A DNA stretch of 64,000 nt from positions 62,001 through 126,000 of the forward strand of contig JACQAM010000003.1 of the NCBI GenBank assembly GCA_016194975.1. Direction: 5' to 3'. Source of the DNA: Bacteroidota bacterium. GTDB lineage: Bacteria > Bacteroidota > Bacteroidia > Palsa-965. Shown here one piece after another: positions 40,448 to 62,633 of this stretch (its first letter is position 1; every line of letters starts with the position of its first letter). The notes below the pieces were generated by a model. That model did not search any database. It saw only the letters and a program-made list of their open reading frames with translations, and was not told where the DNA came from. The translations under genes were made by a program, and so were the position numbers.

Positions 40448-40638
40448 GCTATAAAGATAATGCACCGCGATCAGAATCGAAATGGCATGAATGAAGCCCG
40501 GTACCAGCCAAACAGGATATCGAATATTCTCAATGGTTGGTGCCTTTAATAAGATATCCGGCAGAAAGACTTACCCGGTGTTCCGGTGTTCATCATTCCT
40601 TGTTTCTATTTTTATATCTTTCGAGGAGAAACCATTCT

Positions 40639-43600
40639 ATGCCGAAAAGAATTTCACCTTATTTTTTTCTTCTTCTCTTTTTTCTTCCTGTTTTTTCCTT
40701 CGCTCAACATTACAACCTGAAAAATTATTCTATTGAAGATGGACTTCCACAATCGCAGGTGATGAAGATCATACAGGACAGCCGCGGTTACCTGTGGCTG
40801 TGTACTGATGGCGGAGGAGCTGCGCGTTTTGATGGAAAAAAATTCGAAGTATTCAATGTAGAGAACGGAATGGCAGACAATCGTGTGAATACAGTTTATG
40901 AAGACCGGAAAGGCAATATCTGGTTCGGCACTTTCAGCGGCCTTACCCGGTGGGATGGAAATAAAATGGAGATCTTCTTCAACAAAATAAATGCGAATGC
41001 AAATTCGATTAACGCAATCTGCGAAGATGCATCCGGTTTATTGTGGCTGGGTTCAGATAAAGAAGGAGTGTGGACATTTGACGGAAAAAATTTCAAAAAA
41101 ATTTCACTCACACTTGGCAATGGAACTCCTTTCAACGACGGAATAAAATCAATCCTCTGTACGCGTGATGGAACGATATGGATAGCGAGCGACGGTGCAG
41201 TATTTTCAAGTAAAAATGATTCACTGATCTCTTACCAGCAGCCCCGCTATGATATTTGTTCGAATGGCGCATGGTCGCTTTGCGAAGATCATTTCAATAA
41301 TATCTGGATCGGTTCTTATGGAAATTTTTCGTGCAAATACAACAAGAAAAAAAATTCATGGCAGCATATTGAAAGCAGTTACGGCCTTTCGAATGGTTTG
41401 ATCCTGAATATGACTGAAGATCGTCAGCGCCATTTGTGGGTGTGCACGGATGGAGGAGGAATTTACCAGTTTGATAATTCAAAAGAAGATACGCTCACGC
41501 TTCTGCAAAACATCACTGAAAAAAACGGACTTCCCAATGATCGCGTTCGCTGCATCATGCAGGACAAAGAAGGAAATATGTGGATAGGCAGTGACCAGGG
41601 ATTAACGCGCTATGATCTCGGTGCATTCACAACTTACGACCGGAAAGACGGGCTGAATAATTCTTATGTGCTGAATATTTTTGAAGACAGTAAAAATAAT
41701 TTGTGGTTCGGATCACAGCGTGGCGTAAATGTTTTTGATGGAACCTCTTTCAGTGATTATGCTGTTGACGGAAAACCGGTGAGTAATTATGTGTGGAAAA
41801 TTTTCGAGGATCGCGATCATACTATCTGGCTGGGAACATATTTGGGCGGAGCCATTAAATGCGATGGAAAAAAATCCACTGTTTACACGAATGATCATGG
41901 TTTGCCCAATAGTGCGATCTTCGACATCAACCAGGACCACGATGGAAATATATGGCTGGGTACTGATTATGGGATCGCATTTTTCTGGAAGGATTCCCTG
42001 TTCTATTATAATTCGGTAAACGGGCTGAACAATTGCCGCGTGCGATCGATCTTCATTGACAAAAAAGGAATTGTCTGGATCGGCACACGTAATGGTGTTC
42101 TTCAATTTACACCAACAGGAAAAAAACCACTTGCCACTGATTTCAAACAAATAAAAATAAATGACAAGGTGGATAAAAGTGTGGTGCACTCCATTACCGG
42201 CGATGACAATGGAAATATCTGGTTCACCACTTATGGATACGGCATCATTCGTTATGATCCGGCCACCGGAAAAAGTGTGGAGCTGGAAACGAAAGACGGA
42301 TTAAGCCACAACACTGTTCTGTCGATAGTGAAAGACGGAAAATATTTCTGGATCGGAACCGTGAACGGGATCAATAAATTCAACGTTGTGTTGTTTGATT
42401 CCACCGGTGAAAAATCTTTTCAGCATTTCGGAAAAGCAGAAGGATTCAACGGCGTGGAATGCACACAGAATTCTGCATTCAGGGACAGTAAGGGAAATAT
42501 CTGGTTCGGAACCGGAAGCGGCGCAATAAAATACGATGCGCGTTATGAAACGCACAATGCGATTGAACCGGCAACACACATAACGGGCATGCGATTGTTC
42601 TATGAAAAAACAGACTGGAGTAAATTCGCTGACAGCGTTGACCATTCTACCGGTATGCCTTTTGATCTTACACTGGGCTATGATCAGAATCACATCACTT
42701 TCGATTTTATAGGAATCAGTCTCACATCACCGGAAAAAGTTCAGTACCGTTACAAACTCGAAGGACTCGACAAAGACTGGTCGCCTCCTACTACCGAAAC
42801 TTTTGCATCGTATCCCGGATTACCACCCGGCGATTACACTTTTTATGTGAAGGCCTGCAACAACGAAGGCGTGTGGAATAAAGTTCCGCAATCATTTTCT
42901 TTTTCTGTCGACCCGCCTTTCTATAAAACAAAAGTATTTTATGGCTTCTGCATTTTACTTTTACTGAGTGGCGGTTTGGGATACAGCCGCGTGCGTACGC
43001 GCAGTTTGCGCAATGCAAAAAAACGGTTGGAAAAACAAGTACGTGCGCGAACGGCGGAGTTGCACGAAAAAAATATTACGCTCGAAAATCAGAAGACCGT
43101 CATTGAAGAAAAAAATAAAGACATTACCGATAGCATTACGTACGCGAGGAAAATACAATTGTCGGTTCTTCCTCCGGAAGATCTTGTCACAAAACTTTTT
43201 CCTGAATCCTTCATTCTTTTCAAACCGCGCGATATTGTGAGCGGCGATTTTTACTGGGTGGGAGAACGCGATAAATTGAAATTCTTTTCAGTAACGGATT
43301 GCACCGGCCACGGCGTTCCCGGCGGATTCATGAGTATGCTCGGGATCACTTTGCTCAATGAAATTCTCGCTGAAAAAAATATTATTTCTCCCGGGCTCAT
43401 GCTCGATGAATTGCGCGAACAGGTGATACAGGCGCTTAACCGCTCGCGCAAGGAAGGCGAAATGCCTGCACGCGATGGAATGGACATTTCACTCTGCTGC
43501 ATTGATGAAAAAAATAAAAAACTGCATTACGCAGGAGCCAACAATCCTGTTTATATAGTTCGCGGAAAAGAACTGATCGAACTTGCCCCGGATAAACAAC

Positions 43601-43875
43601 CGGTGGGCGCGCACGAAAGAATAAAACCATTCACGCTTCAAACAGTCGGCCTTTCCACCGGCGATATTATTATTTCTGCTTCAGATGGCTTTCCCGACCA
43701 ATTCAACTCGGAGACAGGAAAAAAATTCTCCTATCGTAAATTCCGGGAAACACTTTTACTCGGTGCCGGATTACCGATACGCGATTTCGGAAAAATGCTG
43801 GAAAAGGAATTTGACGAATGGAAAGGCGATGAACCGCAGATCGACGATGTGTGCGTGATGGGAGTGAAGGTTTAA
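40639..43875 (+). CDS. Two-component-regulator-propeller sensor with SpoIIE phosphatase output
   Basis: 1078 residues from the ATG at 40639, which opens a signal peptide (MPKRISPYFF ... FSFAQ). Periplasmic part: about twelve Reg_prop repeats forming beta-propellers (e.g. GNIWFGTFSGLTRWDG, GNMWIGSDQGLTRYD) to about residue 640, then a Y_Y_Y domain (about 687-755, YRYKLEGLDKDWSP ... LPPGDYTFYVKACNNEGVW). TM helix about 762-782, coiled coil, then SpoIIE phosphatase (about 847-1078) with FKPRDIVSGDFYW, DCTGHGVPGGFMSMLG and DGMDIS. In hybrid two-component sensors this head senses glycans; here the output is a phosphatase. No histidine kinase domain is present. Confidence 0.92.
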   Translation: MPKRISPYFFLLLFFLPVFSFAQHYNLKNYSIEDGLPQSQVMKIIQDSRGYLWLCTDGGGAARFDGKKFEVFNVENGMADNRVNTVYEDRKGNIWFGTFSGLTRWDGNKMEIFFNKINANANSINAICEDASGLLWLGSDKEGVWTFDGKNFKKISLTLGNGTPFNDGIKSILCTRDGTIWIASDGAVFSSKNDSLISYQQPRYDICSNGAWSLCEDHFNNIWIGSYGNFSCKYNKKKNSWQHIESSYGLSNGLILNMTEDRQRHLWVCTDGGGIYQFDNSKEDTLTLLQNITEKNGLPNDRVRCIMQDKEGNMWIGSDQGLTRYDLGAFTTYDRKDGLNNSYVLNIFEDSKNNLWFGSQRGVNVFDGTSFSDYAVDGKPVSNYVWKIFEDRDHTIWLGTYLGGAIKCDGKKSTVYTNDHGLPNSAIFDINQDHDGNIWLGTDYGIAFFWKDSLFYYNSVNGLNNCRVRSIFIDKKGIVWIGTRNGVLQFTPTGKKPLATDFKQIKINDKVDKSVVHSITGDDNGNIWFTTYGYGIIRYDPATGKSVELETKDGLSHNTVLSIVKDGKYFWIGTVNGINKFNVVLFDSTGEKSFQHFGKAEGFNGVECTQNSAFRDSKGNIWFGTGSGAIKYDARYETHNAIEPATHITGMRLFYEKTDWSKFADSVDHSTGMPFDLTLGYDQNHITFDFIGISLTSPEKVQYRYKLEGLDKDWSPPTTETFASYPGLPPGDYTFYVKACNNEGVWNKVPQSFSFSVDPPFYKTKVFYGFCILLLLSGGLGYSRVRTRSLRNAKKRLEKQVRARTAELHEKNITLENQKTVIEEKNKDITDSITYARKIQLSVLPPEDLVTKLFPESFILFKPRDIVSGDFYWVGERDKLKFFSVTDCTGHGVPGGFMSMLGITLLNEILAEKNIISPGLMLDELREQVIQALNRSRKEGEMPARDGMDISLCCIDEKNKKLHYAGANNPVYIVRGKELIELAPDKQPVGAHERIKPFTLQTVGLSTGDIIISASDGFPDQFNSETGKKFSYRKFRETLLLGAGLPIRDFGKMLEKEFDEWKGDEPQIDDVCVMGVKV

Positions 43876-43940
43876 GGTTAATGCAATAGGTTTTTCATTT
43901 TGGATTTTCCATTTGGGATTTGGAATTTTTTAAGTTTGAT

Positions 43941-43977
43941 AATATTGCCACGGATTTTCACAGATTATGCACAGATT
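43941..43977. repeat. Left 37-bp inverted repeat arm
   Basis: Begins AATATTGCCACGG and ends CACAGATT. Matches the reverse complement of 44386-44422 at 36 of 37 positions. Confidence 0.9.
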
Positions 43978-43981
43978 TTTT

Positions 43982-44382
43982 TCAGAGAATTATGCGCTTG
44001 AATTTAAGAGAGTACTCGCCGAAATTCATTATCAACCCGATTTTACATTTCGATACTGCGAGATAATTTATTGTTTGTTTTAAATCTTCATTTGAAATTC
44101 CATTCTGCGCTTTTATTTCAAGTATCACCGAATTTTCAATGACAAAATCCGAGAAAAAATAATGGGGAAGAATAATTCCCTTATAGGTCACATCATACTT
44201 TTTCTCCCTCTCAAAATTAATCCCGCTCATTTTGAATTCCCGTTCAATCGCATCTTTGTAAACGATCTCAAGAAACCCGTGACCGAGATTTCTGTGAACT
44301 TCCATGCATAATCCAATGGCCTTGCTGTAATTTCTGATTCCGGATAAAACGTTTTATCAAAACGCTTTTTTTCTTTTTCCAT
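43982..44382 (-). pseudogene. GxxExxY protein (PD-(D/E)XK nuclease superfamily), frameshifted
   Basis: Two frames together give one complete family member of about 133 residues. The N-terminus MEKEKKRFDKTFYPESEIT starts at 44382; the frame then breaks near 44321-44324 and resumes as KAIGLCMEVHRNLGHGFLEIVY, which carries the GxxExxY signature (GHGFLEIVY). The nuclease-like core follows (FSDFVIENSVILEIKAQ, the D ... E-x-K pattern). Adding one A in the AAGG run would restore the frame, so it is either a natural one-base deletion or a sequencing error. An internal ATG (44305) could give a 107-residue product lacking the first 25 residues. Family function is not established. Confidence 0.82.
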
Positions 44383-44385
44383 ATT

Positions 44386-44422
44386 AATCTGTGTATAATC
44401 TGTGAAAATCCGTGGCAATATT
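44386..44422. repeat. Right 37-bp inverted repeat arm
   Basis: Inverted partner of 43941-43977; lies 3 bp upstream of the GxxExxY ATG and probably carries its 5' signals. Confidence 0.9.
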
Positions 44423-44455
44423 TTCCCCATCGCCACTAATAAATTTGTTAGTAAA

Positions 44456-45847
44456 TCACCCCGCCCAATTCTCTCTATCTAAACTTCGGTACTGAATAGC
44501 TTCTGCAATATGATTCGAAAGAATTTTTTCTGATTCATCCAGGTCGGCGATCGTTCTCGATACTTTCAGGATGCGATCATACGCACGCGCGGAGAGCCCG
44601 ATTTTTTCCATTGCAGTTTTCAGCAACTGAATGCTCACTTCATCGATCACACAAACTTCCCGCAGCAAACTCGCGCCCATCTGCGCATTCGAATAAATAT
44701 TTTCCTGCTTTTCAAATCGCGCCAGTTGCCTGTTCCGCGCACGCACCACACGCGCACGCACATCGGAACTGCGCTCGGAATTTTTACGATCAATGAGTTC
44801 TCCGAATCCAACCGGCGTAACTTCAATATGAATATCGATCCGGTCGAGCAGCGGGCCCGACAAACGATTGAGATATTTCTGTATACCACCGGGCGGACAC
44901 ACACAATCGTATTCCGGCAATTCATTGAGAAACAAAACTCCATTGTGTGCAAGAGAAATTTCGCCGGGCATGGGAATTCCGCCACCGCCTACAAGCGCCA
45001 CATCGGAAATCGTATGATGCGGCGCGCGGAAAGGCCGTTGCGTAATAAGCCCTGAATTCTTCATCGTCTTTCCGGCGACCGAATGAATTTTCGTTGTCTC
45101 GAGCGATTCGCGCAAAGTCATTGGCGGAAGAATGCCAGGCAATCTTTTTGCGAGCATAGTTTTTCCTGCGCCGGGTGGGCCCACCATGAGAAGATTATGT
45201 CCGCCAGCCGCTGCGATCTCGAGTGCGCGTTTAATATTTTCCTGTCCTTTTACATCCGAAAAATCAGAATCGGTGAGAATTTCGGCAGCAGCAAATTCTT
45301 TGTCAAGATCAAGTTTCATGGGCTTGAATTCCCTTTTTCCTTCGAAGAAAGCACACACTTCACTGAGGTGTTCCATGGCATAAACATCGATCCCGTTCAC
45401 TACGGCAGCTTCGCGCGCATTTTCCTTTGGAAGGATCAATCCTTTGAATCCCTCTTCTTTCGCATGAATGGAAATGGGTAATGCGCCACGCACCGGTCGG
45501 AGAATTCCATCAAGCGCCAATTCTCCCATGATCACAAATTCTTCCGGGTTGATTTCGTCAATGAGTTGTCCGGATGCAGAAAGGATTCCAATTGCAATAG
45601 GAAGATCATAAGCAGAACCTTCTTTGCGGATATCGGCCGGGGCAAGATTCACTGTAATTTTTTTTCCGGGAATTTTAAAACCATTATTGTTGAGCGCTGC
45701 ATCAATTCGCTGCTGGCTTTCACGAATGGCGCTGTCGGCAAGCCCTACAATATGGTAATTGATACCGGTGTCAATATTGACCTCAATGGTTACTGTCTTT
45801 GCATTAATGCCGGAAACGGCACAACCGAACATTTTTACGAGTGGCAT
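44456..45847 (-). CDS. YifB/ComM-family Mg-chelatase-like AAA+ ATPase with internal deletion
   Basis: 463 residues against about 510 in the family. Order: N-terminal LonC-like domain (NIDTGINYHIVGLADSAIRESQQRIDAALNNNGF), Walker A VGPPGAGKTMLAKRLPGILP, Walker B LFLNELPEY, then directly DCVCPPGGIQKYLNRLSGPLLDRIDIHIEV and the C-terminal lid. The family has about 45 residues between LPEF and CVCPPG (MRQPLEDR..., sensor 1 SMNPCPCGY). These are missing in frame at about 44907. ComM is a helicase for branch migration in transformation; without sensor 1 and one cysteine pair this copy is probably inactive, unless the gap is an assembly error. Confidence 0.88.
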   Translation of the reverse strand: MPLVKMFGCAVSGINAKTVTIEVNIDTGINYHIVGLADSAIRESQQRIDAALNNNGFKIPGKKITVNLAPADIRKEGSAYDLPIAIGILSASGQLIDEINPEEFVIMGELALDGILRPVRGALPISIHAKEEGFKGLILPKENAREAAVVNGIDVYAMEHLSEVCAFFEGKREFKPMKLDLDKEFAAAEILTDSDFSDVKGQENIKRALEIAAAGGHNLLMVGPPGAGKTMLAKRLPGILPPMTLRESLETTKIHSVAGKTMKNSGLITQRPFRAPHHTISDVALVGGGGIPMPGEISLAHNGVLFLNELPEYDCVCPPGGIQKYLNRLSGPLLDRIDIHIEVTPVGFGELIDRKNSERSSDVRARVVRARNRQLARFEKQENIYSNAQMGASLLREVCVIDEVSIQLLKTAMEKIGLSARAYDRILKVSRTIADLDESEKILSNHIAEAIQYRSLDRENWAG

Positions 45848-61859: not shown

Positions 61860-62633
61860 TCAGTTCAGTTCACCGATCCATCCTGCAACAAATTCAGCCA
61901 CTTCTTCCCAGTTCTCCTGCCCGCAGATGTAATGCGTGCGCCCGGAAAATTCACGGAAATCTTTTTTACTGCTCTTGTCGGAATAAGCATTGAAATTTTT
62001 TCTGTTCAATGATGCAGGAATGATGTGATCTTTTTCTCCAGCAATAAAAAGTAAAGGCACGTGTGGTTTTGAAAAATCAATGAAGCCGTCTTTCTTCGTA
62101 CTGCTGCGTGGAATATTCCTGCTCTCGGGAACAACATATCCTTCGAATTCTTTCTGCGTTTGCATCATCGTCATCGTATTGCAGAACGCATAATGAAACC
62201 AGGATACATCCGGCAGGCAAATGGAATCGCCTTTGAGTGGATTCACTGTAGGAAGGTTTGCTTTGAGGAAACTCCATTTGAAACTGAAAATTCCTTTTGG
62301 CGGAGCCGTGTCTATTGCAACGGCTGCAACTCCTTTATCAAGTGAAATTAATTTCTGCACGGCGAGTCCGCCCATCGAATGGCCAATGAGAATTGGTTTT
62401 TCCGGAAGCTTGTCTATGAAATCCGAAAGATGTTTGATGACTTCGCCGAATGTAAGTTTTCCCAATGCGGGATCCGGATTTTTTCTAAGTGCTGTTGGTT
62501 CGCCTGCATGAAATGGATAAGCAGGAGCGTGGCAGGAATATCCTTTCGAAGAAAAATAGTCTATCCATTTTTTCCAGCTATGCGGATTTTGAAAAAGTCC
62601 GTGAATGAAAACGATTGTCCTGGAATGTGTCAT
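61860..62633 (-). CDS. Alpha/beta hydrolase
   Basis: 257 residues, cytoplasmic by lack of signal peptide. FIHGLFQNPHSWKKWIDYFSSKGYSCHAPAYPFH (oxyanion HG), nucleophile GHSMGGLAVQKL (Ser about 93), acid FIAGEKDHIIP, and late His in SGRTHYICGQENW. Family substrates range widely; none can be named. It runs in the same direction as the COQ7-like gene 40 bp upstream. Confidence 0.85.
   Translation of the reverse strand: MTHSRTIVFIHGLFQNPHSWKKWIDYFSSKGYSCHAPAYPFHAGEPTALRKNPDPALGKLTFGEVIKHLSDFIDKLPEKPILIGHSMGGLAVQKLISLDKGVAAVAIDTAPPKGIFSFKWSFLKANLPTVNPLKGDSICLPDVSWFHYAFCNTMTMMQTQKEFEGYVVPESRNIPRSSTKKDGFIDFSKPHVPLLFIAGEKDHIIPASLNRKNFNAYSDKSSKKDFREFSGRTHYICGQENWEEVAEFVAGWIGELN

Follow-up and report, generated by a model that had tools for sequence, protein, structure and literature searches.

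An inverted pair of arms and the single GxxExxY gene that they enclose form one unit that is copied to unrelated sites, and the locus presented here is a decayed copy of such a minimal transposable element, with one putative nuclease gene between its arms. The DNA that was analysed, hereafter the window, is a 64,000-nt stretch from a Bacteroidota bacterium (assembly GCA_016194975.1, contig JACQAM010000003.1, forward strand, positions 62,001–126,000). To our knowledge, GxxExxY genes have no agreed function. That arms and gene form one mobile unit had been inferred in an earlier note made from the sequence alone; the inference is supported by the recurrence of the same anatomy at unrelated loci, near copies, target duplications and empty sites.

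The arms of the window element (43941–43977 and 44386–44422) form an inverted repeat of 37 nt with one mismatch, and the pairing extends to 40 nt at 95% (Table 1). The gap of about 408 nt between them contains one gene on the minus strand, with its ATG (44382–44380) 3 bp from one arm and its TGA stop codon (43984–43982) 4 bp from the other. The word CAC(G/A)GATT occurs three times in each arm, in steps of 10 and 11 nt. The frame of the ATG (44382) is offset by 77 nt, which is not a multiple of 3, from that of the 107-aa open piece (starting at 44305). As the start codon and the conserved body sit in different frames, the window copy is broken, whereas intact relatives such as L054 consist of a single open reading frame (ORF). 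The flank inverted-repeat score of the element is 35.6, to be compared with a median of 11.2 for the 44 ORFs of the window, among which no other exceeds 14, and with a maximum of 19.6 over 40 mispaired flanks. The inverted repeat is therefore not due to chance. The single-strand folding z of the element is −6.4, and there is no Rfam match in the region 43000–45400.

Table 1. Features of the window element and its neighbours (window positions), and locations of related hairpins and repeats.
Feature	Position or locus	Strand	Remarks
5′ arm, upstream of the gene	44386..44425	−	minus-strand sequence GAAAATATTGCCACGGATTTTCACAGATTATACACAGATT
Words of the 5′ arm	44386–44393, 44397–44404, 44407–44414	+	AATCYGTG
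3′ arm	43938..43977	+	inverted copy of the 5′ arm
Words of the 3′ arm	43949–43956, 43959–43966, 43970–43977		
GxxExxY gene	43982..44382	−	TIGR04256 / PF13366 PDDEXK_3; frameshifted
107-aa open piece	43985..44305	−	nuclease core (GxxExxY motif, D, ExK)
Frameshift, approximate	44303..44322	−	located from the reading frames; exact base undetermined
Neighbouring gene	44456..45847	−	taken to be yifB/Mg-chelatase-like, named by its sequence without a library scan; 3′ end adjoins the element
Neighbouring gene	40537..43875	+	taken to be a long sensor-type protein with a C-terminal phosphatase-like region, by reading the translation only; convergent with yifB
Reversed-order gene-less hairpins	G000:C8:329783-329887, C20:69210-69306, C4:104842-104926, C5:73849-73921; L130, L132		
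MITE-like repeat	L146–L165, L181–L185; flanks of L014, L036, L039, L072		

The protein piece of the window scores 118.5 bits against TIGR04256 (cut-off 35) and 106.5 bits against PF13366 (cut-off 22). When the element ORF was scanned against Pfam and NCBIfam, only the PD-(D/E)XK nuclease family was returned, and no recognised transposase. Across 52 proteins, seven positions do not vary, E44, D84, E94 and K96 among them. The AF2 model (pLDDT 89.9) has a PD-(D/E)XK fold, the nearest match of which is Cas4 SSO0001 (4ic1, Z 10.0), followed at Z values of about 7 by restriction enzymes, Cas4-like proteins and Hjc (1gef, Z 6.8). As the values after the first lie in the range of common arrangements, membership of the superfamily alone is claimed; it is predicted from the invariant residues and the modelled fold, and nuclease activity is inferred. 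A sequence search of the PDB detected no relative up to an E value of 1. The earlier note had described 37-bp inverted arms with one mismatch tightly enclosing a single gene, the stop and start codons 4 and 3 bp from the arms, an internal direct repeat in each arm, a GxxExxY protein of the PD-(D/E)XK superfamily, and a frameshifted, decaying copy. All these descriptive claims held.

The source genome contains five PF13366 copies, and at least one copy is present in 40 of 59 relatives. The other four copies of the source genome are also flanked by inverted repeats, although in one of them the gene is truncated and the repeat, cut to 19 nt, does not score above the null maximum. Over a survey set of 95 GxxExxY loci from related Bacteroidia, the median score was 21.6 for a locus's own flanks and 10.6 for pairs of flanks taken from two different loci; 57 of the 95 loci exceeded the 99th percentile of the null. 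The elements measure about 0.45–0.6 kb. Their arm sequences are specific to the locus, and unlike even among loci within one genome. They mostly consist of three or four copies of a locus-specific word of 7–8 nt that is shared by both arms, as in TTAACCACAGAG-CACAGAG, GCCGCAGATT-GCGCAGATT, TACGAA-TACGAA, GTCTGAAC..TGATT and TGCCACTAAAACAC. At least three copies of a 7-mer word, one mismatch being allowed, were found in 74% of the arms and in 7% of shuffled arms. Self-alignment of the arms at a fixed period gave a weak signal (20% above the 95th percentile of shuffles) and was not retained, as the spacing of the words varies from about 8 to 11 nt.

Two loci of unusual arrangement were encountered. 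At L202, the GxxExxY frame runs on from an upstream thioesterase-like gene in an open frame of 293 aa, which could be a fusion made by insertion. At G020:C2:43651-52102 (L099, L342, L079), one GxxExxY gene and three four-helix-bundle genes are packed into about 5 kb, and at least some of the four have arms of their own.

Near copies were found as four pairs within genomes G018 and G057: L038/L042 (G018; 90% identical over 483 nt), L036/L039 (G018; 85% over 513 nt), L014/L049 (G018; 83% over 447 nt) and L081/L082 (G057; 82% over 530 nt). In each pair the identity stops close to the ends of the arms, and the sequences on either side are unrelated. Direct repeats abutting the arms were accepted as clean target duplications in three cases, matches of 4–9 bp not being counted: 23 bp at L035, which lies inside hsdS, 14 bp at L066, and 10 bp at L083. 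The target duplication is unrecognisable at most loci (p < 0.05 at 10 of 81, about 4 being expected), and the duplication lengths therefore rest on few cases.

The empty site of L066 was searched with a query joining both flanks through one copy of the repeat. In 63 of 97 sister species of the same genus, the joined query aligns without interruption, and each of the 20 junctions that were read holds a single copy (GAAAGAAAACAAAATGCAGTCTAAAG or close to it). In G032, the two halves of the query lie on either side of the element, which is inserted where the stop codon of one gene overlaps the start codon of the next; the 14-bp duplication leaves both genes intact. At the place of the window element itself, an intact element lies at the stop codon of yifB in G001, a genome of the same genus as the window; G004 has no element after yifB, and its next gene resembles the one found beyond the element in G001. 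No clean duplication was found at the sister-species sites of L067, L068, L069 and L071, several of which are footprints or gene-less hairpins rather than virgin sites. The many copies of G018 are left out of the empty-site comparison, as the genus consists of one genome.

The L066 insertion was inherited with an intact gene in at least five further species and has decayed in others. The intact copies display dN/dS values of 0.03–0.11 (about 0.05), with dS up to 1.0. Such strong purifying selection on resident copies is unusual for a purely selfish stationary insertion, and the low ratio in intact inherited copies indicates that the resident gene is useful to something, either continued mobility or the host. 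Whether the unit is selfish, as the earlier note had it, is consequently not settled.

Relatives of the L035 protein with 68–91% identity are found in Bacteroidota, Cyanobacteria, Ignavibacteria, Chlorobi, Poribacteria and Raymondbacteria, including an Anabaena copy (L213) with 87% identity, and they mostly share GTCTGAAC/GTTCAGAC ends. This high identity across phyla is taken as transfer of the element. Carriage by phages or mobile plasmids is unsupported: phage records gave no match to the L035-type protein, and the few plasmid matches did not exceed 64% identity and came from records typed as non-mobilizable. Compared with homing endonuclease elements, which insert into one cognate target site, GxxExxY elements have target sites that are unlike within one genome, but one clade favours type I restriction-modification operons and gene junctions. 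An ATG is found within 12 nt of the 3′ end in 33 of 56 elements of the L035 clade (background 19%), and the 88 neighbouring ORFs include 16 Methylase_S, 7 EcoR124_C, 5 N6_Mtase and 5 HSDR_N. When the flanks of the GTCTGAAC-ended clade were read (L206–L285), the elements were strikingly often located at gene junctions, at the 3′ end of hsdS and within type I restriction-modification operons, and the GTCTGA of a GTCTGAAC-ended element can give the upstream gene its stop codon. The position at gene junctions may result from selection against harmful insertions.

The distance between arms, measured by their 5-mers, correlates with distance in the protein tree (Mantel r = 0.30, n = 76, permutation maximum 0.15). 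The correlation holds with 57, 40 and 30 increasingly distant representatives and fades once the set is cut to the 20 most distant proteins (r = 0.10, p = 0.10). No correlation with the protein tree is seen for the spacer that separates arm and gene (r = 0.016), although this spacer, like the arm, is inherited along with the gene. As the arm word covaries with the protein tree while the spacer does not, it is inferred that the GxxExxY protein recognises its own word class in the arms. The proposal in the earlier note that the nuclease acts on the arms thus has indirect support from co-variation, without binding or cleavage data. That note had also suggested checking whether arms are present at other members of the family in the same genome and whether they are conserved. 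The former was confirmed at the other four copies, weakly at the one with 19 nt; conservation as one sequence failed, the arms being made of locus-specific words whose type follows the protein clade.

Arms also occur without the gene. A two-word arm pattern gave 106 matches in the source genome and 1 when the pattern was reversed. Among the listed places, a GxxExxY gene lies between such arms only at the window's own, and gene-less arms outnumber gene copies in this genome. Arms found mainly without the gene were to refute the mobile unit according to the earlier note, and this is literally the case in the source genome. The gene-less arms nevertheless look like derivatives, some of them made by deletion of the gene in place. 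Arms of a word class are more numerous in genomes with a gene of that class than in genomes without one (median 106 vs 19, p = 5e-4; 30.5 vs 1, p = 4e-5, in a second comparison). In sister species, the two arms are joined and the gene is absent at the L071 site, and arm ends alone are left at the L069 and L068 sites. Given these remnants, some gene-less arms are regarded as products of in-place deletion. Compact gene-less hairpins with ends and words in common with the resident gene are present in G016, G019 and G022. In G037, some gene-less hairpins are embedded in a MITE-like repeat that is unrelated and has GTTACTGTTCAG ends, and their copy number is therefore uninformative about GxxExxY.

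Other repeats were seen along the way. The MITE-like repeat has GTTACTRYTCAG inverted ends and apparent 8–9-bp duplications. In G037 it contains or encloses hairpins of tandem words, and some G018 elements are bordered by similar ends. Some gene-less hairpins have a 3′-type arm before a 5′-type arm, with the outer arm ends facing each other, opposite to gene-carrying loci; they might be circle-junction-like, or independent palindromes. At G000:C19:47609-47848, an arm-like sequence of the type CACTGATT/CACAGATT is present three times in direct tandem, at a spacing of about 108 bp.

Arms of the same kind surround genes of a second family. At four-helix-bundle (PF05635) loci, the flank inverted repeat exceeds the 99% level of the null in 31 of 48 cases, and the arms consist of tandem 7–8-nt words, inverted, like those of GxxExxY. 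This family is best known from 23S rRNA intervening sequences (IVS). The resemblance between the two kinds of arms suggests one larger group of elements. The words at PF05635 loci L096–L125 and L327–L346 look almost arbitrary from locus to locus.

In the model that we prefer, with moderate confidence, transposition would be driven by the nuclease. The PD-(D/E)XK protein would bind its own word class in the arms, maybe as an extruded hairpin or cruciform, and would make or use a cut at the target with a stagger of variable length; the target duplication would then result from repair and fill-in by the host. Gene-less arm pairs arise at least partly by internal deletion, and some may be mobilised in trans. 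The nuclease as the mover is inferred, no activity having been measured. Against this model, the element codes for no transposase or integrase of a recognised kind, purifying selection on orthologous resident copies is strong, most loci lack a recognisable target duplication, and the correlation between word and protein fades among the 20 most distant proteins. Moreover, four-helix-bundle elements share the arm architecture without a nuclease, and movement may therefore not require a nuclease inside the element.

A possible alternative is that the arms serve as a platform which the host or some other machinery mobilises, and that GxxExxY is cargo kept for upkeep of the arms or for a host benefit such as defence or DNA repair. 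Purifying selection on resident copies over speciation, the PF05635 genes within like tandem-word inverted arms without a nuclease, the residence of one clade largely within type I restriction-modification operons, and the location of some G037 hairpins inside an unrelated MITE-like repeat speak for it. Against it, the arm word class tracks the GxxExxY phylogeny and the adjoining spacer does not, and the genomes rich in gene-less arms are mainly those with a resident gene of that word class. Both observations are expected if the protein works on the arms.

It is unlikely that the element spreads through RNA in the manner suggested by the 23S rRNA IVS, its stem transcript being cut by RNase III and copied by a host reverse transcriptase. 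The like anatomy of the Coxiella IVS (PMC4990558), the strong single-strand fold, and the variable target duplications, which fit a priming-type insertion, are compatible with this scheme. However, the element encodes no reverse transcriptase, the loci that were read show no poly-A or 5′ truncation pattern, no Rfam family matches, and the protein has a DNase-type fold. A role of the inverted repeat as terminator or regulatory site, with the gene as an incidental small ORF, is suggested by the location between convergent genes and by arms that can pair, but is all but excluded by the distance of about 408 nt between the arms with a conserved protein in between, by the presence of the whole unit with target duplications inside hsdS and at overlapping start and stop codons, and by the empty site and the precise copies.

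The nuclease-driven model can be taken further. In a bolder reading, to which as a whole we would give slightly less than even chances, the elements would be a new class of transposable element with a lone Cas4-like PD-(D/E)XK nuclease as transposase. The nuclease would recognise a diversifying array of words in hairpin-forming arms and insert through variable staggered cuts, and the elements would belong to a larger group with tandem-word inverted arms, four-helix-bundle elements included, that would explain the origin of the 23S rRNA IVS; these parts share the one joint estimate. No description of such elements, of their repeat words or of a GxxExxY function was found in the open-access literature that was searched. 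If the reading is true, a nuclease alone mobilises DNA and spreads itself through bacterial genomes, and a large set of small genes whose role is unknown, together with the CACAGAG/CACAGATT-type repeats dispersed in bacteria, becomes one describable mobile system. The long-unclear origin of the 23S rRNA IVS would become testable, and the pairing of word and protein across clades would offer a natural series for the co-change of a DNA-binding protein and its site.

Several known systems resemble the element. Two are related through the protein. Rpn/YhgA-like (transposase_31) nucleases, which promote RecA-independent recombination and of which RpnA is described as a nonspecific endonuclease (PMC5350276), are likewise single, horizontally spread PD-(D/E)XK nucleases, but they form a different family, and flanking tandem-word arms are not mentioned in the abstract of that study. 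Cas4 and Hjc are among the closest solved folds of the GxxExxY model, without detectable sequence relation and without the CRISPR or archaeal recombination context. Other systems are closer in architecture. The 23S rRNA IVS of Coxiella and Leptospira also have a small ORF that is looped by terminal inverted repeats some 30 nt long and adjoined by short tandem words; that of Coxiella, called a selfish element, has 28-bp terminal inverted repeats, a four-helix-bundle ORF, and tandem GACAGAT heptamers upstream of the ORF (PMC4990558). In the present elements, however, the ORF encodes a GxxExxY PD-(D/E)XK nuclease and not an S23p four-helix bundle, the sites are intergenic or at gene junctions and not in rRNA (the window site lies between protein genes), and target duplications and an empty site are shown. 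In REP/RAYT systems, a gene is bordered by palindromic repeats of which many gene-less copies exist in the same genome (PMC8266576), and dispersed repeats matching those that border the GxxExxY gene fulfil this feature. RAYTs, however, are HUH Y1 enzymes, usually single-copy and without evidence of gene movement, whereas the PD-(D/E)XK-fold GxxExxY gene itself moves, and its arms are arrays of words spaced by about 8–11 nt. With insertion sequences and MITEs, the elements share terminal inverted repeats that bound the moved unit, target duplications, multiple copies and gene-less derivatives; they differ by a duplication length that is not fixed (10, 14 and 23 bp), by the absence of a known type of transposase, and by arms that differ between copies in one genome. 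By its architecture, the element thus stands near the IVS, REP/RAYT and insertion sequences or MITEs, while departing from each of them in a defining feature.
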